From a virus, in the IMG/VR virus record IMGVR_UViG_3300025276_000003, positions 1 to 58,993 of that record: DNA of 58,993 bases. One strand, 5' to 3'. Positions 2,612 to 58,993 of this stretch are shown here, piece by piece (positions within the stretch are counted from its first letter, which is position 1; every line of letters starts with the position of its first letter). The notes beneath the pieces were generated by a model. It was not told the origin of the DNA, ran no database searches, and worked only from the letters and a program-made list of their open reading frames with translations. The position numbers and the translations under genes were made by a program.

Positions 2612-2622
2612 AGGAATCAAAA

Positions 2623-5755: not shown

Positions 5756-6088
5756 ATGAGAACAATCAAACTTTACCATGGCACAAATGCAAGCAACTTA
5801 CTCAGCGTTATGGACTATCCGAAGGCAAGCAAGTCAATCAATGGCTTAGGCTTTTACTTGTCAACTGAGTATGATACAGCTAAGCAATACGGCAGAGATG
5901 TCATTTGTTACGTTATCTCAGTTGTAGAGTTTGACAAGCTTAGTTCAATAGTTCGTCCAATTGATCAAAGTTACATTGAGGGGATTAGGACATACGAGCA
6001 GTGCTTGGTATGTGGTGTTGAGGTAGTACTTACCCAGCACAGTGCAGACCAGCTGGCTATCAACTCAGAAGAGGTGTATGCTATATGA
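5756..6088 (+). CDS. ADP-ribosyltransferase-like early protein
   Basis: A 110-residue protein. The motif LYHGTN near the N terminus, followed by GLGFYLSTEYDTAKQYG, is the pattern of ADP-ribosyltransferase folds of the H-Y-E type (also seen in DUF3990-like proteins): His of YHGT, Tyr of GFYLS, then helix A..YG. A later YEQCLV could supply the third acidic position, but that assignment is weak. The start at 5756 has GGAG six bases upstream; an in-frame ATG at 5744 would overlap that ribosome site. It is the first gene of the predicted early unit and overlaps RNAP-1 by ATGA. T4 Alt/Mod proteins are a precedent for phage enzymes that modify host proteins early; a similar role here is inference. 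Confidence 0.55.
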   Translation: MRTIKLYHGTNASNLLSVMDYPKASKSINGLGFYLSTEYDTAKQYGRDVICYVISVVEFDKLSSIVRPIDQSYIEGIRTYEQCLVCGVEVVLTQHSADQLAINSEEVYAI

Positions 6089-19214: not shown

Positions 19215-21230
19215 ATGACACAAAGTTTTAGAAGTAAAGTAATAACAAGACGGACATATAACCGTCCTTTGAACGATGAAGGTACTGTGTTTGAGACATG
19301 GCCACAAACTGTTGACCGTGTTATTGGTCACCAGAAGTGGTTGTGGGAGAGAGCACTAGGTCAATCCCTAAGCTTTGGGCAACTAGAGGAACTAGAAGAA
19401 CTGCGAGATTTGATGCTGGCTAGGAAGACTTCAGTCTCTGGCCGAACTTTGTGGCTTGGCGGAACAGAAGTGTCCAAGACCTGTGAAGCATCTCAGTTCA
19501 ACTGTTCAGGTACTCGCGTAGAAGTTGTTTATGATGTAGTCGATACTATCTGGCTACTTATGCAAGGTTGTGGGGTTGGCCTAGAAGCGGTGACAGGTAA
19601 CTTAACTGGGTTCCGTAAGAAGCACAAAGTATCAGTTGTTAGGTCTACTCGTGAGTCTAAGGGCAATCCAGACAATGCTGAATATATTAATGATGGTGTA
19701 TGGACTATTAAAGTGGGTGACTCTGCTCAAGCATGGGCCAAAGCTGTTGGTAAGATTATAGTAGGCAAGAACAACGTCAGTGAGATTGTGTTGGACTTTA
19801 CTGAAATTAGACCTGCTGGATCAAGGCTGAAAGGTTATGGCTGGATATGCTCTGGTGATGAACAAGTTAGCAAAGCATTTGTAGCCATTTGTGAGTTACT
19901 GAACAACAGAGCTGACCAACTACTCAGTGATATGGACATACATGACATAGAAAATTGGCTGGGTACAATACTTTCATCACGTAGAAGTGCTGAGATCATC
20001 ACTAAGAAGTATGGTAGTGAGGATTGGGAGGGATTTGTAGCTCGTAAAACTAACTATTGGTCTTGTAACTCTTGCGGATCACACAACACTACATTAGGAG
20101 TATGTAATGATTGTGGAGCAAAAGATACCAACGATTTTAGAACCCAATCAAATAACAGCTTACTGTTTGAGTCCAAACCTAGCTACCCAGAGCTTAGAGA
20201 CATCTTTAACAGGATGGAGAGTGCTGGCGGGTCTGAACCGGGCTTTATTAATGTTGCTGCTGCAAGACTACGTGCGCCTTGGTTCGCTACACTAAACCCC
20301 TGTGCTGAGATACTGTTGCCCAACAAAGGTTTCTGTAATTTAGTAGAAATTAACTTGGCTGCATTTAGTGACAAGGAACACGGTGAGTTAGACCGCGCTA
20401 TAGAAGTTATGGCTCGTGCTAACTACAGACAAACTTGTGTGAACTTACGTGACGGAATCTTGCAAGAAGCTTGGCATACTAACAATGAGTTTCTACGCTT
20501 GTGCGGTGTTGGACTTACTGGTGTAGCTCAGCGTCCTGACATCAAAAGTCAAGAACTTGGCTCTATGAGGCAGATAGCACACAACTCTGCTAACTCTATG
20601 GCAGACGAGCTTGGGACACCTAGACCTAAGAATGTCACAACCATTAAACCCTCTGGAACTCTCAGCAAGATTATGGACTGTACTGAGGGGTTACATATAC
20701 CTTTAGGCAAGTACATCTTCAACTGGGTTGGGTTCTCATCCCACGATCCTATCGTACTAAAGCTTGTAGAAGCTGGTTACGAGTGGATGCAAAAGCCGGG
20801 TGATTCATCGACATACTTGATAAAGCTACCAGCAAGTTATGAAGGATGTAACTTTACAGATGTCAATGGCACAGAGGTAAACCTAGAATCAGCAATAGAT
20901 CAACTAGAGCGTTACAAGATGTATCAGATCAATTGGACTGATCAAAACACTTCTGTAACCATCTCCTATGACTTAACAGAAGTAGAAGATATTATTGCTT
21001 GGCTTCTAGAAAACTGGGATCACTACGTAGGCGTATCATTTATCTACAGAAATGACCCAACTAAGACAGCAAAAGACCTTGGTTACGAGTACCTTCCACA
21101 AGAAGTTACCACCAAGGAAGAGTTTGAAGCATATGTAGCAATACTAAAAGATGTAGACCTCGATGCTGTAAACTCTCACGACCAAATTGAAGGGGATGAG
21201 TGCGCCACTGGCGTCTGTCCAACTCGATAA
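19215..21230 (+). CDS. nrdJ: Class II (adenosylcobalamin-dependent) ribonucleoside-triphosphate reductase
   Basis: A 671-residue monomeric reductase that turns NTPs to dNTPs using a cobalamin radical. The residues match the Lactobacillus leichmannii enzyme: C97 (FNCSG), thiyl C363 with E365 (NPCAEILL), C374 (KGFCNL; same 11-residue spacing as C408/C419) and the C-terminal redox pair C663-x4-C668 in ECATGVCPTR. Residues about 284-300 hold a zinc-ribbon-like CNSC...CNDC motif. As a class II enzyme it needs no small subunit, which fits the absence of nrdB. It gives the phage a dNTP supply dependent on host B12. Confidence 0.88.
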   Translation: MTQSFRSKVITRRTYNRPLNDEGTVFETWPQTVDRVIGHQKWLWERALGQSLSFGQLEELEELRDLMLARKTSVSGRTLWLGGTEVSKTCEASQFNCSGTRVEVVYDVVDTIWLLMQGCGVGLEAVTGNLTGFRKKHKVSVVRSTRESKGNPDNAEYINDGVWTIKVGDSAQAWAKAVGKIIVGKNNVSEIVLDFTEIRPAGSRLKGYGWICSGDEQVSKAFVAICELLNNRADQLLSDMDIHDIENWLGTILSSRRSAEIITKKYGSEDWEGFVARKTNYWSCNSCGSHNTTLGVCNDCGAKDTNDFRTQSNNSLLFESKPSYPELRDIFNRMESAGGSEPGFINVAAARLRAPWFATLNPCAEILLPNKGFCNLVEINLAAFSDKEHGELDRAIEVMARANYRQTCVNLRDGILQEAWHTNNEFLRLCGVGLTGVAQRPDIKSQELGSMRQIAHNSANSMADELGTPRPKNVTTIKPSGTLSKIMDCTEGLHIPLGKYIFNWVGFSSHDPIVLKLVEAGYEWMQKPGDSSTYLIKLPASYEGCNFTDVNGTEVNLESAIDQLERYKMYQINWTDQNTSVTISYDLTEVEDIIAWLLENWDHYVGVSFIYRNDPTKTAKDLGYEYLPQEVTTKEEFEAYVAILKDVDLDAVNSHDQIEGDECATGVCPTR

Positions 21231-21256
21231 TTAAATTAACCTTACGGAGAATCAAA

Positions 21257-21904
21257 ATGGCTAATGCCCAAAAGAAAGAAACCTCAATTGTAACAGTAAA
21301 AGACGTTTACTTTGTATACAGTTCAGTGAGTGAGCCTCGTTCACAACTAAACCCTGATAACAAGGCTATGATGTCGGATCACGAATTGGAGGGTCATTCC
21401 TACCAAATCAGCATCCTCATGCCTGAAGATCGTTTCAAGTCTGAGCTAAAGCGCGAGTTCAAGGGCGCTAAGAACTTTCCTAACGCTAAGGAATATAGTC
21501 CTGAAGAGTGTGAAGAGTTGTTTGGAGTCTTTGTTGAAGATGACATGGTTTCAATCAAATTCTCTCAGACCTGTCTTACTGGCAAGGCAAGCAATCGTGT
21601 ACCTACTCGTCCTATCACACAGATCGGTATTAAGGGTAAAGTACAGGACATTAACGGTGTTACTATTAGCCAAGATACTAACCTGGGCTATGGCACTAAG
21701 GGTCACTTCCAATTCAATCCTTATCACAACGAGAAGAATGGATTGTACCTGTACCCACACCTAGTTTGTGTTACTGAACTAGTTGAGTACGCTGGTGGTG
21801 GTAGTGCTGAAGACTTAGATTCACTAGGTTTGGAGGAGCTTGACACTGTAGACGTAACTGAAGCTGTGGTCACTAAAGAAGAATTTGAAGATCCCAACTT
21901 TTAA
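21257..21904 (+). CDS. Single-stranded DNA-binding protein, T7 gp2.5-like
   Basis: A 215-residue protein. The core is beta-rich (DVYFVYSSVSEPRS, later GYGTKGHFQFNPYHNEKNGL and LYPHLVCVTELVEY), like gp2.5-type SSBs of phages with family A polymerases. The C terminus is acidic and ends EEFEDPNF with the aromatic last residue that in gp2.5 contacts polymerase and primase-helicase. The ATG at 21257 has GGAG upstream; the longer frame from 21200 lies inside the reductase gene. A strong terminator follows 8 bp after the stop, as expected for an abundant protein. Confidence 0.75.
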   Translation: MANAQKKETSIVTVKDVYFVYSSVSEPRSQLNPDNKAMMSDHELEGHSYQISILMPEDRFKSELKREFKGAKNFPNAKEYSPEECEELFGVFVEDDMVSIKFSQTCLTGKASNRVPTRPITQIGIKGKVQDINGVTISQDTNLGYGTKGHFQFNPYHNEKNGLYLYPHLVCVTELVEYAGGGSAEDLDSLGLEELDTVDVTEAVVTKEEFEDPNF

Positions 21905-21960: not shown

Positions 21961-22092
21961 ATGACAACATACATGGCAGTAACAAAATCCGGGCAGACTA
22001 GCTACTTTTCTGCACGAACAGAATCAGACGCATTTCAGCAAGCAACCAGCTGGGCAGGAGATGACTTATTGGAGAGTTTCAATGTCGCTTGA
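21961..22092 (+). CDS. Small protein, 43 residues
   Basis: Starts MTTYMAVTKSGQTSYFSART and continues ESDAFQQATSWAGDD. GGAG at 21951-21954 lies directly after the terminator's T run. It overlaps the exonuclease start by 11 bp, so translation is probably coupled. A beta-hairpin followed by a helix is plausible. Unknown function. Confidence 0.5.
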   Translation: MTTYMAVTKSGQTSYFSARTESDAFQQATSWAGDDLLESFNVA

Positions 22093-23017
22093 TGACTTAG
22101 GTTTGACAGACTACGAAGCAGAAGAAGAGAAAACCCTACTAATTGACGGAGATATACTAATATACAAGCCTTGTTGCATTTATAACGAGGACGATGACTA
22201 TGATCGTAAACAGATTGAGAAGAACATCAATCACAAAATAGATCAGCTAATGGAGTTATCAGGTTGTGGCAGTTACATCATGTTTGTCACTACTAAGACA
22301 AACTTCAGAGACTTCTTAGTTGACGACTACAAAGCTAACAGAATTGACACAGTACGACCAGTCAACTTGGCGTGGGCTAAGCGGTGGGCTGTAGATACTT
22401 TCAACACACATTACCGATCAGGACTTGAAGCAGATGACCTGTTAGGCATTCACCAGACTAAAGACACAGTTATCTGGAGCTTGGACAAGGACTTGCGACA
22501 GATCTCTGGACTTCACTTGGACGATGCAACAAGCAAGGTCATTACTGTCACCGAAAATGGTGTACTGAGGAAAAAGTTAGGAGCACTAAAGAATCCTGAC
22601 ACTAATAGTAAGGCGCGCAAGGCAACCAAATATTACTTCGACGGTCTGGTAGGGCTCTACTTCCAGATGCTGACAGGTGATGATACGGATTGGATTGTTG
22701 GCTGTGGAGAACGTAAAGAGTACACTGTTAAGTCAGGTGCCAGTGCTGGACAAGTTAGATTAAAACGCTTTGGAATAGGGCCGGGTAAAGCATACGAAAT
22801 GCTTTCAGAAGCTAGAACTATTGAAGATGCGTTTGATGTAGTTTGTGAAGAGTACCGTAAGCAATACGGTGATAACTGGATAAAACACCTTGAAATACAG
22901 TCTAACTTATTGTTCATGGTGCGAGAACACAATGAAAATCTCGTGAGGCAGTGGACTTATGATGACAGAGAGCAGTGGCTTGACATAGATACTGGAGAGA
23001 CTCATGAGGTTACTTAA
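22082..23017 (+). CDS. 5'-3' exonuclease, T7 gp6-like (FEN/PIN fold)
   Basis: A 311-residue nuclease. Acidic metal-binding motifs appear in FEN order: L-I-D22-G-D24, then L-E-A-D-D-L-L-G, W-S-L-D-K-D-L and T-G-D-D-T-D-W. A helix-three-turn-helix DNA-binding motif, GIGPGKAYEML, follows. It would remove RNA primers and resect DNA ends during replication and recombination. The ATG at 22082 has GGAG at 22071-22074; the upstream in-frame start at 22061 has none. It overlaps the endonuclease VII gene by 14 bp. Confidence 0.85.
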   Translation: MSLDDLGLTDYEAEEEKTLLIDGDILIYKPCCIYNEDDDYDRKQIEKNINHKIDQLMELSGCGSYIMFVTTKTNFRDFLVDDYKANRIDTVRPVNLAWAKRWAVDTFNTHYRSGLEADDLLGIHQTKDTVIWSLDKDLRQISGLHLDDATSKVITVTENGVLRKKLGALKNPDTNSKARKATKYYFDGLVGLYFQMLTGDDTDWIVGCGERKEYTVKSGASAGQVRLKRFGIGPGKAYEMLSEARTIEDAFDVVCEEYRKQYGDNWIKHLEIQSNLLFMVREHNENLVRQWTYDDREQWLDIDTGETHEVT

Positions 23018-23369
23018 ATCATCTGACTTAGCCAACATACGAAAGAAGTACACTGCTAAGCAGCGTTACTTGTGTGCTCTGTGTGATGGTACATTGGCCG
23101 GTGGTGTTCCTATGTTGGACCACTGCCACAAGACTGGACATGTAAGGTCAACCTTATGTCGTTCATGTAACGAAGGAGAGGGTAGAGTGTTGTCAGGAAT
23201 GATGATACGCACACCCGTAACTAATTTAGCTAAGAAAGATCCTGTCAAGTGGCTGCGAAGACTCGCAGACTACTGGGAGTATCATGCTGAAAACCCGTCA
23301 GGCTTCATTCATCCAACATTTGATGTAAAGACTGGCAAACAAAAACCTGTAAAGCGGAGAAAGAAATGA
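23004..23369 (+). CDS. Recombination endonuclease VII (Holliday junction resolvase)
   Basis: A 121-residue His-Me finger endonuclease like T4 gp49. Zinc ligands C24-A-L-C27 and C52-R-S-C55; catalytic block L-D39-H40-C-H-K-T-G-H-V-R, with N56 after the second Cys pair. The tail is basic (KQKPVKRRKK). It should cut branched DNA before packaging. It sits between two exonucleases, overlapping both, as one recombination/repair set. Confidence 0.88.
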   Translation: MRLLKSSDLANIRKKYTAKQRYLCALCDGTLAGGVPMLDHCHKTGHVRSTLCRSCNEGEGRVLSGMMIRTPVTNLAKKDPVKWLRRLADYWEYHAENPSGFIHPTFDVKTGKQKPVKRRKK

Positions 23370-37173: not shown

Positions 37174-38652
37174 ATGGCGATTGAAATTACTGAATTTGCC
37201 AATGTCTCTATCTCTGTATCTCCTGTTGGAGTTGGTGCTGGAAACTTTGGTATCTTAGGTTTTCTAACCTCAGATTCAGACCTTAACATTGCTGGTAAAG
37301 GTATCCTCCCAGCTGAACGTGCTAGATCTTATACTAGCTTAGCAAGTGTTGGTGGTGATTGGCAGGCTTCTTCAGAAGTCTACAAAGCTGCTACTGCCTT
37401 CTTTTCTCAGACCCCTACCCCAACTGACTTTCTAGTTAAAGTATGTTACGAAACTGCTCAGCCTTCTACTTTGGTTGGTGGCGGTTCTGACACTGCTGCT
37501 GAGTTGATTGCTGCCACTTGGAATGGTTCCGGTGAGCTTTCCATGAATATCGAAGGAGTTGATGTTGTCATCACTGACTTAGATGTATCTGGTGCTGCAA
37601 CTTCTGACTACGCTGGTGTTGCTGGCGAGCTAGAAGCTATTATCTCTGCTATTGTTGTTGGCACAACTGTTACTCACAATGGCTACCAGTTTGTAGTAAC
37701 TGCACCCACTTCTGGTGTATCTTCTACAATGACTGCTCCTGCTTCTACTGAAGCTACTGTTGCATTGGGGTTAGCTGTTCAGCTTGCTTCTGTTTCTCCT
37801 GGCATTGCCGTTGAAACTCCTGTTGATGCATTGGCTGCTACTCTTGCAAAAGGAATAGTAGATGTTGGTCTAGTTACTAACAAGAAGTGGCGTGACGTTG
37901 TTGGTGTTGCTACTGGCAGCTCAACTACTGACATTGCTATGTGGGCTGAAGGCGCTAAGCGTATCTTCTGTAACACTACTAATGATCTCACTACCCTTAC
38001 TTCTGGCACTAGTCACATTGCTGCTGACCTTAAAAGTAGAGCTTTGCGTTTTAGCTTGACTACTTTCTCTAAGGATGCTACTGCATATCCTTCAGCGTCT
38101 GTCTTTGGTCGTGCTGCATCTGTAAACTTCTCTGCGATCGGTTCAACTATCACTCTTAACCTCAAGCAGATGCCGGGTATAGCTGCTGAAAACTTGACTC
38201 CATCTGAGTTTGCTAGCATGAAGTCACACTTCTGTTCAGCTGTTGTACAGATTGGTTCAAGTGTTAGTGCATATACTGACAGCCGAATGGCTTCAGGTTC
38301 ATGGCTAGACACTACTCACGGAATATTGTGGTTAGAGAACCGTTGTGAAGCTGACATGTTTAACCTTCTGTATGTGTCTGGAACTAAGCTTCCTTATACT
38401 CAGGTAGGTATTAACACTGCTGCTGCAACTCTTGAGCGTAGCTTACAAGCTGCTGTTCGTAATGGTTTGGCTGGTCCCGGAACTTTAGCTGACGGAACAT
38501 ACTTGTCAGAGGGTTTCATTGTTGAGTCCGTATCATTGGCCAACACTCCAGTGAGCGACAAAGGTAACCGCATGTATAAGGGCTTGTCCTTTAAGATGGT
38601 TGGTGCTGGCGCAATGCATGAAGTCGAAGTTTCAGGTCAATTCTCAGAGTAA
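37174..38652 (+). CDS. Contractile tail sheath protein (DUF3383 family)
   Basis: A 492-residue protein. The N terminus FANVSISVSPVGVGAGNFG and the middle WRDVVGVATGSSTTDIAMWA, followed by FSLTTFSKDATAYPSASVFG, are typical of DUF3383 sheath proteins. The C-terminal domain (NRCEADMFNLLYVSGTKLPY; RMYKGLSFKMVGAGAMHEVE) is the usual sheath core. Strong T-ending codon preference indicates high expression. This gene defines the myovirus tail type. Confidence 0.85.
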   Translation: MAIEITEFANVSISVSPVGVGAGNFGILGFLTSDSDLNIAGKGILPAERARSYTSLASVGGDWQASSEVYKAATAFFSQTPTPTDFLVKVCYETAQPSTLVGGGSDTAAELIAATWNGSGELSMNIEGVDVVITDLDVSGAATSDYAGVAGELEAIISAIVVGTTVTHNGYQFVVTAPTSGVSSTMTAPASTEATVALGLAVQLASVSPGIAVETPVDALAATLAKGIVDVGLVTNKKWRDVVGVATGSSTTDIAMWAEGAKRIFCNTTNDLTTLTSGTSHIAADLKSRALRFSLTTFSKDATAYPSASVFGRAASVNFSAIGSTITLNLKQMPGIAAENLTPSEFASMKSHFCSAVVQIGSSVSAYTDSRMASGSWLDTTHGILWLENRCEADMFNLLYVSGTKLPYTQVGINTAAATLERSLQAAVRNGLAGPGTLADGTYLSEGFIVESVSLANTPVSDKGNRMYKGLSFKMVGAGAMHEVEVSGQFSE

Positions 38653-38668
38653 CTAATAGGAAAACATT

Positions 38669-39166
38669 ATGTACCAATATAGTTTCGCCAATGTTGACCT
38701 CATTATTGAGGCTAACTATCCAGACATGCCAGCAGGAAGCCCCTCTTCGTTTAAGATTCAGGGATTCGCAACTGGTGAAAACCTAATAAGTATTGCACGA
38801 AGAGCACCGATTGCTACACAAACTTTCGGAGCTTATGGTGATATGGTTGTTAACATGCAACGTATCCGAGCTGGTGATCTGGCTTTTCCAGTACTTCAAA
38901 ATGCTTTAGAAAACAAGTACTTGCAGGACTACGCAAACTACTTCCAACAGCAAGCTGATGACAATGGTCAGCTGGTCTTCCCTATTCAAGCTAAGTTAGT
39001 TGATAACATGGGTAAGGACACTTGCAAAATGGAAAATGGAGTTATACTTGCTATGCCTCCTATGATGCGTGGACAGACTATGTCTACTGTAAACTGGGTA
39101 CTAACATTTGAAACCGTGACTTTCAACAGAGAGCATGGCGGAGATTTAGCCCAACTGGGTGCCTAG
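38669..39166 (+). CDS. Tail tube protein (DUF3277 family)
   Basis: A 165-residue protein: SFANVDLIIEANYPDMPAGS at the N terminus, GFATGENLISIARRAPIATQ, and the end VNWVLTFETVTFNREHGGD. Size, order after the sheath and sequence fit DUF3277 tail tube proteins, which stack as hexameric rings inside the sheath. A strong terminator follows, so the next genes are expressed less. Confidence 0.82.
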   Translation: MYQYSFANVDLIIEANYPDMPAGSPSSFKIQGFATGENLISIARRAPIATQTFGAYGDMVVNMQRIRAGDLAFPVLQNALENKYLQDYANYFQQQADDNGQLVFPIQAKLVDNMGKDTCKMENGVILAMPPMMRGQTMSTVNWVLTFETVTFNREHGGDLAQLGA

Positions 39167-39233: not shown

Positions 39234-39608
39234 ATGTCAGAAGATTATCACGCTACCTTAAGAGGTGGACAAGAGATTTACATACCAAGCTGGTCTGCAA
39301 AGGTCCAGTACAAGAACATGATGCAAGTTTGCAAGTACTTAGGTCAAGCAAATGTTGTTGCAATATCAGCCCTAGATGTACCAGCTACCGTAGTAGCTTT
39401 AATGGGTTCTGATGAACCAGATGTCACAACTGATCTGGTACTACACTTTATTCAACAGGCCCGTATTGACGGATCTAAGATTGATACAAACAAAGCTGAA
39501 GAGCTTGGCATGACACTCATAGCTGAACTATTCACACACGTAATACATTCACAGTACGCTGATTTTTTCGAATCAGGTCTAGCAAGGGACACCTCCCAGA
39601 GCACTTAG
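39234..39608 (+). CDS. Tail assembly chaperone, short product
   Basis: A 124-residue protein in the position of lambda gpG-like chaperones, between the tube and tape measure genes. It is helical (VQYKNMMQVCKYLGQANVVA, LGMTLIAELFTHVIHSQY). Near the 3' end lies T TTT TTC (39563-39569), read in frame as TTT TTC, a classical slippery heptamer. A -1 slip there continues into the frame of 39626-39826. The chaperones assist polymerisation of the tail tube on the tape measure. Confidence 0.8.
   Translation: MSEDYHATLRGGQEIYIPSWSAKVQYKNMMQVCKYLGQANVVAISALDVPATVVALMGSDEPDVTTDLVLHFIQQARIDGSKIDTNKAEELGMTLIAELFTHVIHSQYADFFESGLARDTSQST
39563..39569 (+). promoter_or_regulatory. Programmed -1 ribosomal frameshift site (TTTTTTC)
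   Basis: The heptamer has the X XXY YYZ phase relative to the 39234 gene. The -1 frame has a TGA at 39560-39562, exactly upstream, and is open from there to 39823, so the overlap fits a slip here. A bulged hairpin, CCTCCCAGA with TCTGGAGG (39592-39618), lies about 22 bases downstream and covers the ribosome site of the second frame. Confidence 0.75.
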
Positions 39609-39841: not shown

Positions 39842-42800
39842 ATGGCTGACAAAGATAATGTAGATGGAAAGTATCCTAGCTCTAAACCTAAAAGAACATT
39901 AAGCCTTAAGGGGGGAGCAAAGAGGAAGAAGTCTGCTTACTCTGTATCACCGGGATCAATAGACGGACAGAGAGAAAGAGCACCTAAGAGTATGTCCGAA
40001 ACTATGGGCGGAAACTACGGCAAGATTAAAAAGGTTCAGCACATGCTGGACACTATGGAAATGACTGGCGGAAAACGCCAAGAGCTGTACGACATTATAG
40101 CTCACTTAGAAGAAGATGATTATGTAGATGAAATAAGCAACTCAGGTCTGGGAGACACTGGACTGACTGCAGTGGCAAGCTCAAACTACAGTGGAGATGA
40201 TGCAGTAGAGGAAGAGACATACCAAGGAATGTCAGAGTATGGCGAGACTGACACTAGTAATATACTAGCCCAAAGAGTTATGTCAATGAGCTACGGAGTG
40301 CAGGCTGCTACCTTGGGCATCATAGACGGCTCGTACAGCCCGTCAGGGAAAGATGAAATTGAGCTTACTGCTGCCATAGAGGACTTCACTAAAAGCCTAG
40401 GAGGGTCCACTACTGAGTTCGTGAGAGCTGTTAAGTCTCAGCTGCCCAGTGGTGTAAAGCCGACAAGGAGTAAACAGGACGTAAACCTTACTCTGTCGAT
40501 GATGGGAAGCAGTGCTGAGGACTACATCAAAGCTGGTGGTACTAGGCTTGATGGCCAGACAATGAGTGCAGAGGCCGAGATAATCCAAAGGTATCAGCAA
40601 GAGAAGCTCTACAATAGGATTGAGAGTCTTGCTGATACCTACTACCTCACAGATGCTACTAAGGCATCGGACATATATGGCGTAAGAAAAGCACAGGTTG
40701 TTCAGGGCTTAGCCAAACACTTTATGGATACTGATATATCTGGAATAGGAGTGAGAGGTAGTTCAGCTCTTCCACTACCCAACCAGCTTGGTATACCCGG
40801 ACTGAAGTGGACAAAATCAGTTGGCTATGACAGAGTTGGTTCCGCCTTTACTCCAATGGAACATGCTCAAGAGATTGAGAGGGTTAAGGCCAGAGGTGGG
40901 TCAGTTACTTTAAAAGAACAATGGGAGCTAATCAATAGAGGCCCAAGCGCAAAGGATACCTTCTCACCCTATGACGAATCACTGTCAAAGTTTGGGAAGA
41001 CTTCCGAAGAGATAAGAGCCATACAGAAGAGTAGGTTTGATGCAATCAACGATGATGCACTTGAGCTTCGTGACCTTCTCAGATCACAGACTGCTACCAT
41101 TGCTGATGGAAACAATGGCTTCAGATCTCGTGTCATAGGCCAATGGAATCCTAACGGGGACCAAGCTGCTGCAACAGAGTTCAGAAACTTTCATAGCGCA
41201 CAGCTTGGGATGACTGGATTGAATGAGTGGTCTGGCAGCGACGACAGTGAAACAAGACAGATGGACACTGACGCCCCAATGCACCAAGGTGGATCTAGGA
41301 AAGGTCAGGAAAGTGGTGGCATGTATGGAGCTAAGGGTATGTCTGAGCAGGAAGAAGCTGTACAGTCAGACATGGCTAGATACCAAGAGCTGATAGAGGC
41401 ATCTGGATTTAAGATGAGTTCTGATGATGCTATTGCAAGAGTGATGGAAGAGAAAGATCCTACAGCAACAAAGCCTGTCCTAAGTACTGATGGCTACTCA
41501 GCCTATGACTATTACAAGCGAAATGTAGCTGGATCTGTAACTCCTGCCCAAGGTAGTGACGAGTGGAAGTCTCAACGAACTGGTAACGTAACAGGTTCTG
41601 TTGCTAAAAAGTTGTTGCAGAAGAATGGACACGTTGCGATGGCAGTAGAAGTTGCCTCTGGTGTACTTGGTCTTGGTGGGTTTGCAGGCAATGCAGCATC
41701 TAAGCAAGGTAATGACTTTGAGGATAAGGTAAGGGATACATTCCTTGCCAGTCCTGAAGGTAAAGACATACACTGGGAAGAAGCCTTTTATGAAAGTCAT
41801 AAGGATAACTCAAGGTTTGGCGCAACTCCTGATGGAAGACTCTTTCACAAAGATGGCTCAAGTGCTGGTCTAGCTGAATTCAAGTTCTTTGGTGACAAGC
41901 ACATGAGCATAGGGAAGGCTCGTCTGGAAAAGGAAATCAACCCCCAAGTGCAGTGGCAGATGTATGTCTCTGGCGAAAGAGAGACAAGGGTAACTTGGCT
42001 CAACAGTGAAACTAACAAGTACATTCACAGCGTGATAAAAGCTGATCCTGAATTACAAAACAAGATGGCGGCTACTGCTAGAGCTTCAATTAAGATTGCA
42101 GATGAGTTGCATAGTGCATCGGAGGTACAAAAGATGAGGTTAAAATACGGAGGTGCAAAACAAGCTTCAGCAGGAGGAGGTGGTCAGGATAAGGAATTCG
42201 TTCCCAGTGATGTAGAAGCAGAAGTTCCAATGGCTGCGTTTGTAGCTGGTGATGATGTATCTTACGGAGAGGATGTATCTGACGTAGGTCCGGGTGGTCC
42301 CAAGGCACAAGCTGCAAGAGCTGAAAAAGCTAAGCTACTTGAAGAGACGATAGCTAAACCAAAAGCAGGATCACCAGAAGCTATTAAGGCAGACAAGGAA
42401 GCGGCTGATGCTGCCAAGAAGTCTGCTGCTGCACTGAATGCACTGGCTTCAACTGTCAGGAAAACTGGCGCAGTGATGGAGCAGCTGGGAAATTTGGTTC
42501 AGAAAGCTACGGACAGTGTTCTCGATGAAGACAGGTCTGCTAGACTCAATGCAATGGACACTGGAGAGCAGCGTGGCATAGCAAGGGCAATGGCGAATGC
42601 AAACGTAAGCGACTCTGCTATTTCCCAAACCCTGACTCAAGCAGGTAGTATTCAGGCTCAGTTGGGTATGGACCCAAACAATGCGCCTAACAAGTTGATG
42701 GCTATGAATGCAGGCTTGAGAGGTCCGGGTGCTACACCTGAGATGCGAGCTATAAAACTTCCTAGCAATGATGACTACTTGAGGATGGGGACTAAAGAGC

Positions 42801-43585
42801 GAATGGCTCAGGCAATGGATGCCATAAACTCTGTAGATTCTCGTGAAGAGAAACAGAGGGTGGCCAATGCTATGGGGTTTCCTCAGCTTGCTACAGCTAA
42901 CGACCTAACTGGGAATATGATACGAGAGGCTAGTAACGATCTTGTAGATGGTAGGGTTAAGGCTGCACAAGATACTGGCACAGGTTTAGCCAAGTATGAC
43001 CAAACGAAGAAGGATATTCTCGAACAAGGTTCTCAAGTGGGAGAGGAAGCGGGATTCCTTGCGGGTGGAGCTAGTGATCTTGGTGGGCTCTTACAGAAAC
43101 CTGCTGGTGGACTGGCAACAGCGAAAGCTCTTGGTGGTGCAGCTGTTGCTGCTGGTACTGTTAAGGCAGCTGCTATTGCTGCGGGAACTACTACAATGGG
43201 AGTTATCACAGCTCCTGTTACTGGTATCGCGGTCACTGGTGCTGCTGCTTCCTATGCAGCTTACAAAGCTTCTGAGGCAAATCCATTAGCTAAGGGTACT
43301 GGCGACTTCATAGGACAGGGTATTGATCAGGTAGCTTCATTCTTTGGTAGCGACGATGCTACGAAAAGGATAGAGGACATGAAGATCTTTAGGGAACAGC
43401 AAGCATTTCCCAGCATGAAGATTAGCGGTCCTGCTGTTTTAGAAGATAGGTACTACGGAGTTGGTGGCAAGCCTACTATAGAAAACATGGACATAACTTT
43501 AACCCAGAACAACGATGACATCAGTGCTCAAATTAAGTTAGATGGAGAAACGTATCAGGGTGACAACAGAGTGAGGACTAGGTAA
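39842..43585 (+). CDS. Tail tape measure protein with embedded YqaJ-like nuclease domain
   Basis: A 1247-residue protein at the tape measure position. The N-terminal 500 residues are charged and helical. Residues about 571-745 have the features of a YqaJ/lambda-exonuclease PD-(D/E)XK domain: GSDEWKSQRTGNVTGS (571-586), QGNDFED with E627, F-G-A-T-P-D664-G, A-E679-F-K681-F, and N-P-Q702-V-Q704-W-Q706-M-Y. Lambda exonuclease-type catalytic D, E, K and the trailing Gln motif are all present. Residues about 1095-1140 are hydrophobic (AAIAAGTTTMGVITAPVTGI), as in the membrane-active part of tape measures. It sets tail length and would enter the host with the DNA; the nuclease could then act on DNA in the cell, which is inference. 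Confidence 0.8.
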   Translation: MADKDNVDGKYPSSKPKRTLSLKGGAKRKKSAYSVSPGSIDGQRERAPKSMSETMGGNYGKIKKVQHMLDTMEMTGGKRQELYDIIAHLEEDDYVDEISNSGLGDTGLTAVASSNYSGDDAVEEETYQGMSEYGETDTSNILAQRVMSMSYGVQAATLGIIDGSYSPSGKDEIELTAAIEDFTKSLGGSTTEFVRAVKSQLPSGVKPTRSKQDVNLTLSMMGSSAEDYIKAGGTRLDGQTMSAEAEIIQRYQQEKLYNRIESLADTYYLTDATKASDIYGVRKAQVVQGLAKHFMDTDISGIGVRGSSALPLPNQLGIPGLKWTKSVGYDRVGSAFTPMEHAQEIERVKARGGSVTLKEQWELINRGPSAKDTFSPYDESLSKFGKTSEEIRAIQKSRFDAINDDALELRDLLRSQTATIADGNNGFRSRVIGQWNPNGDQAAATEFRNFHSAQLGMTGLNEWSGSDDSETRQMDTDAPMHQGGSRKGQESGGMYGAKGMSEQEEAVQSDMARYQELIEASGFKMSSDDAIARVMEEKDPTATKPVLSTDGYSAYDYYKRNVAGSVTPAQGSDEWKSQRTGNVTGSVAKKLLQKNGHVAMAVEVASGVLGLGGFAGNAASKQGNDFEDKVRDTFLASPEGKDIHWEEAFYESHKDNSRFGATPDGRLFHKDGSSAGLAEFKFFGDKHMSIGKARLEKEINPQVQWQMYVSGERETRVTWLNSETNKYIHSVIKADPELQNKMAATARASIKIADELHSASEVQKMRLKYGGAKQASAGGGGQDKEFVPSDVEAEVPMAAFVAGDDVSYGEDVSDVGPGGPKAQAARAEKAKLLEETIAKPKAGSPEAIKADKEAADAAKKSAAALNALASTVRKTGAVMEQLGNLVQKATDSVLDEDRSARLNAMDTGEQRGIARAMANANVSDSAISQTLTQAGSIQAQLGMDPNNAPNKLMAMNAGLRGPGATPEMRAIKLPSNDDYLRMGTKERMAQAMDAINSVDSREEKQRVANAMGFPQLATANDLTGNMIREASNDLVDGRVKAAQDTGTGLAKYDQTKKDILEQGSQVGEEAGFLAGGASDLGGLLQKPAGGLATAKALGGAAVAAGTVKAAAIAAGTTTMGVITAPVTGIAVTGAAASYAAYKASEANPLAKGTGDFIGQGIDQVASFFGSDDATKRIEDMKIFREQQAFPSMKISGPAVLEDRYYGVGGKPTIENMDITLTQNNDDISAQIKLDGETYQGDNRVRTR

Positions 43586-44553
43586 TGACAATTAAGAAGT
43601 TCGGACAGGAGGTATACTTAGAAGTTAGGGGCAAAGAAAAAGAAATGATTCTGGATGCCTCTGGACTTCGTATTGACTTTGATATAAGACAGACCAATGG
43701 TTACAACTTAGCAACCTTTACTATCTACAACTTGACACAAGAGTCAGTGAATAGCCTACTAAGCGACAGCTACAAAACTGTGTCGCTTGGAGTCTCTTTG
43801 CATGATAGCCCAATACAGTTCTTAGCTACTGAGTATTTTGTAAGTAATGTAGTGGACGAGATTGTAGTGCCAAACAGGATAGTAAAGTTGTATTGTCAAG
43901 ACAAGCTACTGCTAGATTATCTTGAGAAGCCAGTCGAGTTTGTTTCAAAGTCAAAGACTCTAAAGAGTTTAGTCAACAGCGTAACATCTCATGTTAAGTT
44001 TAAGGGAAGTGTGGAGTACAATACCTTTCCATATAACCTAGAGAACCAAGCACTGTCTGGAAGAAGTAAGAGGCCTTTTACAGGAAATATGCTGTCATGT
44101 TTAAATGAACTTGGAAATGAGTATAACTTCAATCTGTATACTAAGGATGGTAACTTGGAACTTTTGTACAAGCCCAACCTAGATAATGTGAATGGAACTA
44201 GTCTATACAAAGATCCAGTCATAAGGCTACAGTCAAACAACATGAGAACTAACCCGTCAATAGGACTGGGAAGTATGACAGTTGTGTCTAACCTTGACCC
44301 AAGGATGAGGACAGGAGCCATACTAGAGACAAGAGACTTGCTAACTGCATCTACAACTACTAGTGAAGTTGCACTTCAGACTCAAGAGAGGCTTATCTCA
44401 GAAAGTATAAATGGGTACAGCAGATACCAAATCTGGAACGTACAGCATAAAGGAAGTAACTACACAGGTGATTGGCACTCAATAGTGAATGCCTACACCC
44501 CAACTCGCGGAAAACAAATGATGACAGGAACCTCAACTTGGTTTAGGTCGTAG
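43585..44553 (+). CDS. Baseplate hub protein (probable)
   Basis: A 322-residue beta-rich protein (YLEVRGKEKEMILDASGLRI, ATFTIYNLTQESVNSLLSDS, FVSNVVDEIVVPNRIVKLYC), in the pattern of gp27/gpP-type hub proteins encoded after the tape measure. Thr/Asn-rich loops near the C terminus. The ATG overlaps the previous stop (TAATG). Confidence 0.6.
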   Translation: MTIKKFGQEVYLEVRGKEKEMILDASGLRIDFDIRQTNGYNLATFTIYNLTQESVNSLLSDSYKTVSLGVSLHDSPIQFLATEYFVSNVVDEIVVPNRIVKLYCQDKLLLDYLEKPVEFVSKSKTLKSLVNSVTSHVKFKGSVEYNTFPYNLENQALSGRSKRPFTGNMLSCLNELGNEYNFNLYTKDGNLELLYKPNLDNVNGTSLYKDPVIRLQSNNMRTNPSIGLGSMTVVSNLDPRMRTGAILETRDLLTASTTTSEVALQTQERLISESINGYSRYQIWNVQHKGSNYTGDWHSIVNAYTPTRGKQMMTGTSTWFRS

Positions 44554-44561
44554 GAGTTATA

Positions 44562-45734
44562 ATGGCGAAAGTAACGCCCGCAGCCATTACCTACACTCCA
44601 GTAGGTCAGGCTAAGACAGTACTAAAGTTTCACACTGTAGTATCGGAAGCACACCAAGCTGTATCGGAAATTACAAAGTTTCCTGTACAGTCTGGGTATG
44701 AAATAAGTAATAATGTAATACGTAAGAATAGGATACTGACAATCGAGGGAGTGATTTCTAACTTGCAGATGGCATCATCTAAAACCTATTACAAATATTC
44801 GGAGACAGATAATGCAAAAGCTGTCTTTGAGGCACTGGAGTCTTTGGTTAGTAATGGCACACCTTGTGAGGTTGTTACTAACCTAGGAAGATACAACCCA
44901 GTAGTGTTTAACAGTTTCAACACTAAGCAAGCAGCTGGCCTTATAGACTCAATGCACTTCACTATATCTGGTGAGGAGTTGCAGATAGCAAGTAACCTAA
45001 ACACTTCTGGAGCTAAGTCTCTACCATTCATAGAGTTGACAGGTGCAGAATACGAGCTTAGGGTGGAGGCACTAAAAGAAGCTAAGTTTGAGGTTTGTGG
45101 TGATGCAACCATATCTGAAGCCAGTTTTGAGTTAGGTACAGACTTCGTACTAGACGGAGTTAATGATCTTGGATTGCCAACAAAGACTTCATACATAAGC
45201 AACGGACTTGACACTGTTACTGGAGGGTATAGCTACTCAGTACATACGTCAGATGTTGACATGTACATACCAGAGGCTGACAAAGTTCTGCCAACTGGTG
45301 GCGACCTTGATGACATATCTTCTTCTGGAGGTTTTGCTCAAGTAAGTAGTTGCATGACAGATTCGGGTGCTGAGATAATAGAAGAGGCAGCCGTAGATTA
45401 TATAGACACAGCTATGGGACAGCTTGCAGAAAGTGCAAGAGGAGCACTGTACGACACAATGAACCTAAGTGGGGATGAGGTTGGGCAGTCTTTAATACAT
45501 GCTGGTGTTGGGTGCATGGCAAGGGGTTTAAATGATGTGGTGTCAGAAGCTTGGTTCTTGCCCGGAGAAGGATTGCCGACTGCCCAAGACATAGTGGACG
45601 GAGCCGTAAACTTTGGCGCAAGCTTGTTTAGCAATGATGGCGAGATACCCACAACTGATAACGAAAAGATTGTAGCAGAGATTGCAGAAAAAGCAGCTCC
45701 AGCAACAACAACTATAACTCAAGTTCAATGCTAA
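44562..45734 (+). CDS. Baseplate protein, Dit-like (probable)
   Basis: A 390-residue protein. The N-terminal 145 residues (VVSEAHQAVSEITKFPVQSG, then RKNRILTIEGVISNLQMASS, FNTKQAAGLIDSMHFTISGE) match the DUF6046/Dit-like pattern of tail proteins that form the ring between tube and hub. The C-terminal part is Ala/Gly-rich and acidic, with ALYDTMNLSGDEVGQSLIHA, and is not recognised. Confidence 0.6.
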   Translation: MAKVTPAAITYTPVGQAKTVLKFHTVVSEAHQAVSEITKFPVQSGYEISNNVIRKNRILTIEGVISNLQMASSKTYYKYSETDNAKAVFEALESLVSNGTPCEVVTNLGRYNPVVFNSFNTKQAAGLIDSMHFTISGEELQIASNLNTSGAKSLPFIELTGAEYELRVEALKEAKFEVCGDATISEASFELGTDFVLDGVNDLGLPTKTSYISNGLDTVTGGYSYSVHTSDVDMYIPEADKVLPTGGDLDDISSSGGFAQVSSCMTDSGAEIIEEAAVDYIDTAMGQLAESARGALYDTMNLSGDEVGQSLIHAGVGCMARGLNDVVSEAWFLPGEGLPTAQDIVDGAVNFGASLFSNDGEIPTTDNEKIVAEIAEKAAPATTTITQVQC

Positions 45735-50330: not shown

Positions 50331-53300
50331 ATGGTTACAAAAGTAAGAGGATCAGTGGTACTTCCGGGTTCCGCAGTAACAGAGGTCCAAGAAGAAGTTC
50401 TGTCTCATTGGACGTATGATGACAGCAGTCGTAGGCTAGTGTCTGACAAAGCAATAGAAACAACACTAAACTCCCTGTACTTGGGGGAGCAACATAAGAT
50501 GTCTTCTGGCTCAGAGAACATCTACTTCACTAACTTAACTAGCGACATTAACTTCTTCCCTATGTGGGGCGGGTTAAAAGACCAAAGCATTACAGCTAAC
50601 AGAGACGGTTCAGGATTTATACCTCCCAGCGGGCGTGTGTATTCGGATATGTTTTCACTGCCTCTTGGTGGTTCTCCTGATCCACTTACTTCTGTAGGCT
50701 ATGCAGGTAATAACTACTTCGGTATTAACATCTCTGGTTTAGGTATTACTACAGTTGCGGCTGAAGAAGTTGGCACAGACGTTAGGCTTGAGTACCGCAT
50801 TACTATTTCGGGTCGTCAGGTGTATATGCAAGAGCTACCTCGAAGTGGAAGTCGATCCTCTGCTGGGTCGGTGATTTACCCAAATGACACTATTGAGTGG
50901 TTCTTTGATCATCCTGTAGATGTACACGCAGGTACTACACTGTTTGCTGAAATTCATAAAGTACGTAACTCTGATGATGTTGACTTAGGTGTATTCCAAG
51001 TTCGTCAAGGTGATACTGTTGATCCCAACACGGGTCTGCTACGTTACCAAGCAACAGTCCACAACCGACTGTACGAAGACAAAGACTTGGAGCTTATCTC
51101 TCCTTATGTAAAATACAAAGCTATGGACTTTGGTCTGGACTCTACTGGATCTACAATACTCTTAAGAGATTTATCTTTAGGAGCTGAAAGCCTGTTAGTA
51201 CCTCATGCAGTAAACACACTAGAGGCAATTGCAAACGGCACGGAGATAAAAATTAAAATCAAAGGCGGAGCTAAGATAATAGTTGAGTCTTTGCCAGTAA
51301 ACGCTGTGAGCATAAACGGATCTTTTGTAAACGCAGTGTTGAACCAAGCTGTAACTCAGCTGAATGAAATATTTACAAACACTTCGGGCTTTGCCTCAGA
51401 TGACACTTTTGTAAATTCTTTTACTTTAAGCGGCAATGACTTAACTTTGGGACTGAATGATGGGACATCATACACAACAGATATAACTAGCTTAGGGGTA
51501 GACGAAAACAACTTTGTGGCTTCAGGATCTTTGAATGGTTCTGACTTAACACTCACAATGGCAGATGCTACCACGGTTACTATTGATGCTTCAAGTCTGG
51601 CCTTAGATACAAACGACATAGTAGAGAGCGGAGTAATTAACGGAAGTGACTTAGAGCTTACACTTAGCAATGCCTCTGTAATTACTATAGATGTTTCATC
51701 TTTATCTGTAGACACTACTCTGTATGTTGAGAGTGGTGCCTTAAGCGGCAGTGACTTGATACTTACTATGAGTGATGCTTCAACTGTAACGATAGACGCT
51801 TCAAGTTTATCAGTAGACACAGACACCACAATAACAGGTGGTGAAGTCAGTGGAACTAATATACTACTAGATGTTAGTGATGGGTCAACTCTAACCATAG
51901 ACGCATCTACTTTAGGTGGTTCGGGCAGTTCAGGCAATCCTGTAGTAAGTGGCTCAGTAGTAGGTACTGACTTAGTGCTAGTTTTAGATGATGCTACTCA
52001 GATTACTATAGACGCTTCAAATATGATTAACGGCTCTACAAACTTTTCTAGTCCTGATTGGTACTACAGTTATGGAGATAGAGCTAATGAGAGCGTGAAC
52101 AATACCATTAGTGATTCAAGTTTAGGTATAGCACCAAGAGCTCCCTTTTACTTTGGTACATCTTTAGAAAGAGGTACAGAGTTTAGATGGAACTTCAACA
52201 ATAACAAAGCCTTTGTATTGGGTATATGGGATGGGGCGACACACAATCACTCAGGTACTCACAACTCTAAACAGCAAGTAAACTGGTCTACGGGCTTCTG
52301 GCGTGATACTAGTGGATTTAGAGTGGGTAGCAACACAACACTTACAAACACTACAACTTCTAGTAGATACGTACCTAGCTTTGGTGCTGCTCTAGCGCTT
52401 AGATTCCTAAATAACGGACACCTAGTACTCGTGGACTTAAGCGGAACTGCTGAGGTAGAGATAGCTAAAACAACTAATGCCTTAGTAGCTGATTCTTTTC
52501 AGTTACAATTAGGGTGTGACGCTCAGTTTATATTTCCGCAATTTGTAAGCTCAGAGTCTGAAAACCTTTGGGAGATTGTACACGACTACAACAATGTTGA
52601 AAACGGTATTCTTAACGGTGTGTTAGATCATACAGTTATAAAGAGCGGTATATCTATTGTGAAGGGTGAGAAGATGTTATTTATGTTGGACTACGTAGGT
52701 AACGGAGACAACTTCGGTACAGGGTATACCAACGCAGCTACGGGAGTTGTTACAGCAGAAGACCAACTATTAAATCATTTTAAATATCAAACTAACGAAG
52801 CTATGGTGTTTACTCAAGGTGGTGCAAATGATTGGGTAATGAGCACAGGAGCTGACGGCTATTTCTTTGCAGCTAACTTAGACCAATATCGTAATGGTGG
52901 GGGTTCAGGAACTGTACAAGGTATGTTTTCTTTAAGGTTTAACAATGACGGTAAACTTACTATCTATGACGAAGACGCAGGCCAAAAAGTAGCAACGGCT
53001 AAGTCAGACCCTGCAGAAGGTAGTTCGGTGCATTTGTATATGGGTGTAAGAGGTAATAGAACGTATTCTAAAATTCCTGTCATATCTAAACAATCACTAA
53101 GTCAAAGTAATCAGCCTAACATAAACTACGTTCCTGTGGTGGCAGATCAAACAGCTTCAGTAGAAGAGGCAGGTGTACTGAACTTTCAGGTTATAAGTTC
53201 TGATAACATAGTAAATCAGTTTGTTGAGGTTGATGCTCCTAGTTGGCTAACAATGAATCAAAACAGTGGTGTACTTAGTGGTACTGCTCCTGCATTCTTA

Positions 53301-54155
53301 GGCACAAGTGCTGACACTGTAGTAGTTACTTGTAAGGCAGGTAATGCTATTGGTGGTACTGTAGACTTTACTGTGACTGTATCTATTACTGAAGAGGCTG
53401 GTAGTTATACAAATGCCAAGTCTTTACAGTTTAATGGATCTAGTACCTTTCTGCAAGGCAACGCTACTGTTATGAATGCTATGGATAGGTCTTCAAATGG
53501 AGATGGAAATGCCTGGACTCTTAGTATGTGGTTCAAGCCTTCATCTAGTACGGCCACACAGACCCTGTTTAACTACGGTCAAGGTAGTGGTACGTCTACT
53601 GGTGCAATTACTTTGCATCAAACTGGAGGCAATCACATTACACTTCAATATGGTACGGTACACAATAAGATAGTTATTGCAGCTCTAAGCTGCTTGACTG
53701 TTGGATCTTGGAATCACTTGGTTGTTACTTTTGACGGAGGAACAACTGGGTCATCTCAGTCTGACCTTTCCGACTACTACAGTAGGTTTTCTATTGCGGT
53801 TGATGGTGCTCTTGTATCTCAGGCTGGCTCACATAGCAACTACGGATACGTTGGAGTGTTAAATGGTAATGACACAAGTGACAACATATTCAGAGTAGGT
53901 AAAGATAACAATGTTTATAACAACTATTCTGATAGTGTGATTAACCAAGTAGCTATCTGGAACAGTGATGAGACTTCTAACTTGGCTGCCATATATAATG
54001 GCGGAGCAACTCAAGACTTAAGCTTACTAAGTTCAGCTCCTACTCACTATTACGAAATAGAAAACAGTGTAACAACTATTTCTGATGTGTCAGGTAATGC
54101 TCATCTTACGGGCTACAACTTTACTAGTTCAGACTTAGTTACGGATACACCTTAA
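50331..54155 (+). CDS. Large tail fibre with tandem beta repeats, Ig-like and LamG-like domains
   Basis: A 1274-residue protein. Residues about 366-566 hold six tandem units of 34-38 residues of the form SGx(L/V)xGSDLxLTxxDAxxVTIDASSL. Residues about 600-930 are a lectin-like or fibre region with Trp/Asn-rich strands. About 935-1025 is an Ig-like/cadherin-like domain (VPVVADQTASVEEAGVLNFQ, PSWLTMNQNSGVLSGTAP). About 1030-1245 is a LamG/concanavalin-like domain (AKSLQFNGSSTFLQGNATVM, WTLSMWFKPSSS, GSWNHLVVTFDGG). It is the longest adhesin-like protein here and probably contacts the host first. A strong terminator follows. Confidence 0.78.
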   Translation: MVTKVRGSVVLPGSAVTEVQEEVLSHWTYDDSSRRLVSDKAIETTLNSLYLGEQHKMSSGSENIYFTNLTSDINFFPMWGGLKDQSITANRDGSGFIPPSGRVYSDMFSLPLGGSPDPLTSVGYAGNNYFGINISGLGITTVAAEEVGTDVRLEYRITISGRQVYMQELPRSGSRSSAGSVIYPNDTIEWFFDHPVDVHAGTTLFAEIHKVRNSDDVDLGVFQVRQGDTVDPNTGLLRYQATVHNRLYEDKDLELISPYVKYKAMDFGLDSTGSTILLRDLSLGAESLLVPHAVNTLEAIANGTEIKIKIKGGAKIIVESLPVNAVSINGSFVNAVLNQAVTQLNEIFTNTSGFASDDTFVNSFTLSGNDLTLGLNDGTSYTTDITSLGVDENNFVASGSLNGSDLTLTMADATTVTIDASSLALDTNDIVESGVINGSDLELTLSNASVITIDVSSLSVDTTLYVESGALSGSDLILTMSDASTVTIDASSLSVDTDTTITGGEVSGTNILLDVSDGSTLTIDASTLGGSGSSGNPVVSGSVVGTDLVLVLDDATQITIDASNMINGSTNFSSPDWYYSYGDRANESVNNTISDSSLGIAPRAPFYFGTSLERGTEFRWNFNNNKAFVLGIWDGATHNHSGTHNSKQQVNWSTGFWRDTSGFRVGSNTTLTNTTTSSRYVPSFGAALALRFLNNGHLVLVDLSGTAEVEIAKTTNALVADSFQLQLGCDAQFIFPQFVSSESENLWEIVHDYNNVENGILNGVLDHTVIKSGISIVKGEKMLFMLDYVGNGDNFGTGYTNAATGVVTAEDQLLNHFKYQTNEAMVFTQGGANDWVMSTGADGYFFAANLDQYRNGGGSGTVQGMFSLRFNNDGKLTIYDEDAGQKVATAKSDPAEGSSVHLYMGVRGNRTYSKIPVISKQSLSQSNQPNINYVPVVADQTASVEEAGVLNFQVISSDNIVNQFVEVDAPSWLTMNQNSGVLSGTAPAFLGTSADTVVVTCKAGNAIGGTVDFTVTVSITEEAGSYTNAKSLQFNGSSTFLQGNATVMNAMDRSSNGDGNAWTLSMWFKPSSSTATQTLFNYGQGSGTSTGAITLHQTGGNHITLQYGTVHNKIVIAALSCLTVGSWNHLVVTFDGGTTGSSQSDLSDYYSRFSIAVDGALVSQAGSHSNYGYVGVLNGNDTSDNIFRVGKDNNVYNNYSDSVINQVAIWNSDETSNLAAIYNGGATQDLSLLSSAPTHYYEIENSVTTISDVSGNAHLTGYNFTSSDLVTDTP

Positions 54156-58036: not shown

Positions 58037-58047
58037 AGGAATCAAAA

Positions 58048-58993
58048 ATGTTATTTGAAACAGTAGCACAATTAAAACTTGCTACACTTACCGCAGGGCA
58101 GCTAGTATCCACTAAAGGGTACTACGCTTCCGGTGACGGAGGTGCAGCAGATTACATAGTGGCAGCTACTCAAGCTGTAGACGGATATGGAGACCATGCG
58201 TTAGCGGGCAGTACAGTCGCTTTATTACAGGAGGGATCTTTGGCAGACGTTAAACAGTACGGTGCTAAAGGTGATGGAACAGCAGATGACCTACCTTCCC
58301 TTCTAGCTGCTTGTGCTGTAGGTAAAGCACTGTACTTTGGCGGTGTAGCAAACAACTACCGTATCACGGATTCCATTGCAGTCACGCTAACAGCAGACTT
58401 GCACTGGGTAGCAGATGGGGCAACCATAACAGTAGACTCAGGCGCATCAATACGGCGGGCTGTAGATGTAACGGGTGCTGGCTTTGATGTAAACATCCAA
58501 GGTAAGCTAACAATTGATTGTGACAGGAAAGCATTTACTGGTGTATACATCTACAACAACACTTCCTTTGCCGATGTAAATATCAGCCAACTCTATGTAA
58601 GAGATTGCTTCAGAGCCTCCACAACCTTTTCAGGAGGAGATGGTATTTGGGTTAGGGGTGCTTGGGATAAAGTGGCGTTAATTGATGTAGATATACGTAA
58701 CGTCACTATGGCAACAGGGGCAGGGGTATTTGGTTCGCAAGGTGTTTCTGGTATTACCGTATCGTCAGCTGGAATAGGTCTTGCGCCGCAGCGAGTAAAC
58801 ATTACACGAGTACATATTGATGGAGTGTATTCAGAAGATGCTACATACCAAGCTGACCAAGATGGCATCCGAATCTTCACCGAGGAAGATATAGTAGGGG
58901 ATCCAAAGTTATTTGAAGGGAGCTTCCTTATTAGTGGTGGTGCCATTAACAATTGCGGTGGTAGAAGCATTAAGTCACAGATGGAACACGGTG
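58048..58993 (+). CDS. Tailspike 3, 5' part (second copy, cut by window end)
   Basis: The first 946 bases of the gene described at 2623-4158, including the whole adaptor and the first part of the beta-helix. AAGGA before the ATG. Confidence 0.85.
   Translation, partial: MLFETVAQLKLATLTAGQLVSTKGYYASGDGGAADYIVAATQAVDGYGDHALAGSTVALLQEGSLADVKQYGAKGDGTADDLPSLLAACAVGKALYFGGVANNYRITDSIAVTLTADLHWVADGATITVDSGASIRRAVDVTGAGFDVNIQGKLTIDCDRKAFTGVYIYNNTSFADVNISQLYVRDCFRASTTFSGGDGIWVRGAWDKVALIDVDIRNVTMATGAGVFGSQGVSGITVSSAGIGLAPQRVNITRVHIDGVYSEDATYQADQDGIRIFTEEDIVGDPKLFEGSFLISGGAINNCGGRSIKSQMEHG

Follow-up and report, generated by a model that had tools for sequence, protein, structure and literature searches.

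The tape measure protein encoded by an uncultured viral genome (IMG/VR record IMGVR_UViG_3300025276_000003; 58,993 nucleotides, referred to here as the window) contains a nuclease domain of the YqaJ/lambda-exonuclease type, and the same fusion is found throughout the Chaseviridae and related uncultured contigs. The protein is the 1247-amino-acid (aa) product of an open reading frame (ORF) with an ATG start at 39842-43585 (+). Sequence comparison and structure models make it very probable that this is the tape measure ORF of a Chaseviridae-like myophage, and that the domain, placed between two helical arms, is catalytically complete. Chaseviridae-type phages would thus probably carry into the cell, along with the genome, an enzyme that degrades DNA from its ends.

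Nuclease domain and active site

Residues 574-711 were matched by Pfam YqaJ (PF09588; E=1.5e-8, 35.5 bits, gathering cut-off 22), and residues 565-855 by the PHROG RecE-like exonuclease family (phrog_434; E=1.2e-16). A single-sequence phmmer search of the window protein against the PDB gave no match and a family profile was required; the profile, built from 36 homologues, matched lambda exonuclease at 2.7e-17 and LHK-Exo at 8.6e-35. The nuclease-domain model produced by AlphaFold had a predicted local distance difference test score (pLDDT) of 84.9 and a predicted template modelling score (pTM) of 0.80, and its best PDB matches in Foldseek were LHK-Exo (template modelling score, TM, 0.79) and lambda exonuclease (TM 0.71, both by target length). 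By sequence and model, residues about 565-765 are a genuine YqaJ/lambda-exonuclease domain. An earlier first-pass annotation, made by a model from the DNA letters, had placed the segment in this branch of nucleases; Pfam, PHROG, the family profile and Foldseek agree with it, the predicted fold is that of lambda exonuclease, and every motif that it quoted was found in the ORF (G571-S586, E627 in GNDFED, D664 in GATPDG, E679-F-K681 and Q702-V-Q-W-Q706).

Alignment of 36 nuclease domains (30% mean column identity) gave ten invariant columns (W575, R579, G623, E627, D664, E679, K681, Q702, Q704 and M707), and when 28 homologues were aligned over their full length (18% mean identity) the same ten were the only invariant columns of the protein, so that the conservation expected for the site in homologous tape measures has no exceptions. 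An apparent loss of E679 in the Nefertitivirinae (R in six rows) was rejected as an alignment slip, their ExK being an EVK a few columns earlier. The ten residues correspond to W24, R28, G81, E85, D119, E129, K131, Q157, Q159 and M162 of lambda exonuclease, as counted by hand along the printed 6m9k alignment. In lambda exonuclease, K131A (Lys131) and R28A (Arg28) each destroy activity (PMC5758106). D664, E679 and K681, which the first-pass annotation had expected to cluster, align with the lambda active site; their clustering in the window protein we infer from the fold and the sequence alignments.

The full-length AlphaFold model, with an overall pLDDT of only 60, is largely helical and of low confidence; helical arms are predicted, and the nuclease forms an alpha/beta island flanked by poorly ordered linkers. 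A Gly/Ala-rich segment (residues 1096-1114) has borderline hydropathy, and many homologues are without it. For some tape measures, a helping role of glycine-zipper segments in membrane passage has been proposed (PMC10240207).

Identity of the tape measure protein

The ORF is a tape measure gene by position. Window genes run in the order sheath, tube, tail chaperone, nuclease ORF, hub and Dit-like protein, followed by baseplate J (46772), and of the tail genes that lie from the frameshifting chaperone up to the hub and distal tail genes the nuclease ORF is the longest. A frameshift arrangement of the lambda G/GT type precedes tape measure genes; in the window a T TTT TTC heptamer lies in the register required, and reading in the -1 frame ends just upstream of the nuclease ORF. 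In myophages whose sheaths are related, this slot is occupied by an annotated tape measure of about 550-730 aa. The name given to the protein in the first pass is therefore borne out by the chaperone-hub slot kept in relatives, the slippery site and the outgroup annotations. That the ORF encodes some other virion protein, as deposited names such as tail fiber and T4 gp5 analogue (several records) and the transglycosylase domain of six homologues might suggest, is highly improbable, since in every genome read it is the sole long gene in the interval from tail chaperone to hub, the slippery site and the annotated outgroup tape measures mark this slot, and the product is predicted to be largely helical.

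Tape measures act as rulers at about 0.15 nm per residue. In phage ST32 the protein has 1241 aa and the tail measures 132 +/- 9 nm (PMC6266442). At that ratio the full ST32 protein would span about 186 nm, and about 134 nm after subtraction of about 350 nuclease and transglycosylase residues; this one rough data point suggests that the enzyme domains lie outside the ruler part. The group's longest tape measure ORF (1735 aa, at L025:3487-8691 and L049:12638-17842) has its excess mostly C-terminal of the nuclease, which would lead one to expect a longer tail or a further domain.

Distribution of the fusion

Relatives were found via the sheath protein, as direct whole-protein tblastn in phages and a pattern search in viral contigs returned no close relatives. 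The best sheath relatives among deposited phages were Chaseviridae, with 30-40% identity and the same gene order, and the window phage is a distant relative from an uncultured group close to that family.

In each of the six Chaseviridae isolates examined first, the gene in the tape measure slot matched YqaJ, as did its counterpart in 24 related uncultured contigs and in 12 further isolates with an intact tape measure gene; the seven relative contigs lacking a match were short or ended before the tape measure gene, as far as examined. At least ten further uncultured loci had the same fusion in the same neighbourhood. Each genome with the fusion contained exactly one YqaJ match, and all full-length homologues (28 of 28) matched YqaJ, six of them also matching SLT transglycosylase. 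The fused domain is conserved across phages of Escherichia, Erwinia, Aeromonas, Vibrio, Shewanella and Proteus. In the first pass the insertion had been treated as a peculiarity of one protein; the database search overturns this, with other tape measures carrying it in Chaseviridae isolates and uncultured contigs alike, and the fused nuclease is a family-wide trait of the Chaseviridae and related uncultured contigs (all that could be read).

Of six outgroup myophages whose sheaths are related, five (Magia, Aaphi23, vB_PsaM_M1, birk and pKp383) had no YqaJ, and the sixth, SEN34, had a free-standing 269-aa YqaJ only. A spread of the fusion well beyond the clade was rejected: among the matches listed, all long YqaJ ORFs were in the clade and the others were free-standing, mostly 200-300 aa. 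The bacterial genomes searched for the fusion gave one free-standing match only. A nuclease tree made to test for a single origin, built from a biased sample and with long branches, set tape-measure and free-standing domains apart except for one long-branch row, a pattern compatible with one acquisition or more.

Two records in the set stand out. The tape measure frame of Aeromonas phage pAh6-C (L095:4608-7741) is broken inside the nuclease domain and intact in close relatives, and the break is probably a sequencing error. Phage Pel53 (L054) is recorded from Staphylococcus hyicus, yet its tape measure shares 77% identity with one from an E. coli phage, which makes its host label doubtful.

Virion presence and delivery

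A protein of Escherichia phage 4HA13, gi 1735348880 (annotated as tail tape measure), was among the top proteins identified by liquid chromatography-tandem mass spectrometry in CsCl-purified phage (PMC9699118). It was matched by product name and accession order to AC4HA13_0067, which carries YqaJ. The proposal that the nuclease travels in the tail is in this way supported as far as virion presence of a homologue goes, the evidence coming from this relative of the window phage. A separate free nuclease product was considered and set aside, as no consistent internal Shine-Dalgarno sequence and start for separate translation, and hence no internal ribosome site to support it, was found. Tape measures exit the tail ahead of or together with the DNA, and the nuclease-bearing tape measure is likely to leave the tail with the DNA at infection. 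The lambda tape measure acts at the inner membrane, which is also a site of action of the defence nuclease SNIPE (PMC13190303).

Candidate roles of the nuclease

The fused nuclease would be built into the tail with the tape measure, as seen for the relative, exit when the DNA does, and work on DNA ends where the genome enters. Exonucleases of the lambda type need a double-stranded DNA end, and intact circles are no substrate; because of this an intact plasmid or host chromosome would be a poor first substrate, and the ends of the incoming linear genome would be the nearest one. The 5' strands of the incoming terminal repeats would be resected, RecBCD would be unable to load on the resulting 3' tails, and these could be annealed by the phage gp2.5-like protein, closing the genome to a circle or concatemer. 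As a whole, a tail-borne catalytic nuclease acting on entering genome ends is the best explanation, which we hold with slightly less than even confidence. That the terminal repeats are the substrate, and that resection allows annealing and closure, is a serious possibility short of an even chance, and the complete picture of a Chaseviridae-type pilot exonuclease delivered in the tape measure, which resects entering ends, lets the repeats anneal and close, and keeps RecBCD off, is put forward tentatively.

Several points weigh against this picture. The end-resection role is derived from enzyme type and genome architecture, catalytic activity is a prediction from sequence and model, and entry of the nuclease portion into the cytoplasm is a proposal for every member. 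Bet/RecT was not found among the scanned window ORFs, and another 5'-3' exonuclease (22061-23017) is encoded separately in the phage genome anyway. A folded domain of about 200 aa is a tight fit in a tail lumen of about 4 nm and a lambda-type trimer ring is too big for it, so that the nuclease may be partly unfolded in the tail or held at a wider point.

The first-pass annotation had also stated that no other lambda-exonuclease or Bet-like gene is present; the single YqaJ and the lack of Bet/RecT stand, and the gp2.5-like annealing protein has to be added. Since the neighbours of the tape measure gene are tail genes and only the gp2.5-like gene, 18 kb off, could be a partner, the nuclease is a YqaJ family member that is not part of a lambda Red-type gene pair. 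The gp2.5-like protein, the 5'-3' exonuclease and an endonuclease VII provide the phage with recombination functions elsewhere.

Attack by a tail-borne nuclease on host or resident DNA after entry, as pre-early takeover or counter-defence, seems unlikely to us, the need of the enzyme type for a double-stranded end leaving out intact circles and conservation across phages of six host genera arguing for a core phage function. Targets could be chromosome breaks, restricted or replicating plasmids or defence intermediates, and the catalytic and virion evidence would fit equally; the strictly lytic habit of the Chaseviridae (PMC12842549) and the inner-membrane site shared by the lambda tape measure and SNIPE (PMC13190303) are also in favour. 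Work late in the producing cell, on recombination or packaging intermediates or in DNA trimming at head-tail joining, is a rather unlikely alternative: the gene lies in the late structural module and would give much late protein, and YqaJ enzymes normally serve recombination (phrog_434), but such work needs no fusion to a virion protein, and a separate nuclease product is not apparent. That the domain chiefly holds or steers the DNA end inside the tail, catalysis being of little importance, is very unlikely, since all catalytic residues, and not just the conserved DNA-binding ones that would suit a protein situated in the DNA path, show no variation among 36 divergent homologues, whereas most of the remaining sequence drifts.

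Genome features

The window comprises 55.4 kb of unique sequence and an exact 3568-bp end repeat (1-3568 / 55426-58993). Chaseviridae have linear genomes of 52-56 kb with terminal repeats of about 3 kb and a single-subunit RNA polymerase, and are strictly lytic (PMC12842549). The end repeat of the window covers tail-spike genes, whereas the repeated region of phage ZPAH14 holds the RNA polymerase gene instead, and it could be an assembly wrap and not a physical terminal repeat. Whereas Chaseviridae are described with one single-subunit RNA polymerase, the window has two such genes (6085-8277 and 24456-26318, both phrog_414); matches to two such genes were also present in three related uncultured contigs, and to one in Escherichia phage flopper. 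The gene at 50331-54155 encodes a tail protein of 1274 aa whose C-terminal domain is concanavalin-like (Laminin_G_3). Feature coordinates are collected in Table 1.

Table 1. Positions in the window of the tape measure gene, parts of its product, and related genes
Feature	Position	Strand	Basis
Tape measure protein with embedded nuclease	39842..43585	+	ORF; slot between tail chaperone and hub, kept in relatives
YqaJ/lambda-exonuclease domain, residues ~565-765 (Pfam match 574-711)	41534..42136	+	Pfam, PHROG, profile, AlphaFold, Foldseek
R579, equivalent of lambda exonuclease Arg28	41576..41578	+	Alignment to lambda exonuclease; invariant
E627, equivalent of lambda E85	41720..41722	+	Alignment; invariant
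D664, equivalent of lambda D119	41831..41833	+	Alignment; invariant
E679-x-K681, equivalents of lambda E129 and K131	41876..41884	+	Alignment; invariant
QxQxQ helix, residues 702-706; Q702 aligned to lambda Q157	41945..41959	+	Alignments
Low-confidence stretch N-terminal of nuclease, residues ~418-503, probably flexible	41093..41350	+	AlphaFold pLDDT <50
Low-confidence linker C-terminal of nuclease, residues ~773-893	42158..42520	+	AlphaFold pLDDT <50
Gly/Ala-rich hydrophobic segment, residues 1096-1114, possible membrane segment	43127..43183	+	Hydropathy 1.52 over 19 residues
gp2.5-like single-stranded DNA-binding/annealing protein, possible partner	21200..21904	+	phrog_112
Separate 5'-3' exonuclease, replication module	22061..23017	+	phrog_107; weak Pfam 5_3_exonuc_N, below cut-off
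Endonuclease VII	23004..23369	+	Pfam Endonuclease_7, phrog_423
Tail sheath	37174..38652	+	phrog_205; 30-40% identical to Chaseviridae sheaths
Tail tube protein	38669..39166	+	phrog_280 and position; homologous 4HA13 slot annotated tail tube
Tail assembly chaperone	39234..39608	+	Pfam Phage_TAC_15, phrog_11820
T TTT TTC slippery heptamer, G/GT-type frameshift	39563..39569	+	-1 reading open to stop ending 39826
Baseplate hub	43585..44553	+	phrog_196
Dit-like tail protein	44562..45734	+	Pfam Dit_like

Significance and comparison with known systems

No paper linking a YqaJ/exonuclease domain with tape measures or with the Chaseviridae was found in the part of the literature covered. A few deposited records name the gene product exonuclease or putative endonuclease, others tail fiber, hypothetical, virion structural or tape measure, and the present assignment corrects the annotation of a gene that is mostly called tail fiber, hypothetical or virion structural. 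Enzymatic tape measures are already known; what is new is a tape measure enzyme domain of DNA-acting type, as judged from sequence, that is fixed across a whole family, from which it appears that enzymes working on DNA can be part of tape measures. What lets linear phage genomes withstand host nucleases that degrade DNA ends, and how they become circular within the first minutes after entry, is often poorly explained, and the early fate of genome ends would be testable by point mutants in E. coli phages (flopper was isolated on MG1655). If the proposed role is true, the virion would carry an end-processing enzyme instead of a wall-degrading one.

Among known systems, the Chaseviridae tape measures (phiEcoM-GJ1 gp62, 4HA13 AC4HA13_0067 and ZPAH14 gp34) are closest to the window protein, which shares their slot and fused domain and aligns with them over its whole length; it is only about 13-16% identical overall to those of the isolates and has no detectable transglycosylase domain. 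The free-standing nucleases lambda exonuclease, LHK-Exo and RecE-YqaJ (PF09588) share with the window domain the fold, the E-D-ExK-Q site and the Arg28 equivalent, but are proteins of about 200-300 aa, whereas the window type is an internal domain of a tail-module virion protein of about 1200-1700 aa. Tape measures with peptidoglycan hydrolases or peptidases are alike in gene slot, in helical arms and in holding an enzyme within a tail-lumen protein; unlike theirs, the Chaseviridae-type enzyme is predicted to act on DNA and not on the cell wall, and within the nuclease clade it is the nuclease that is universal and the transglycosylase that is optional.

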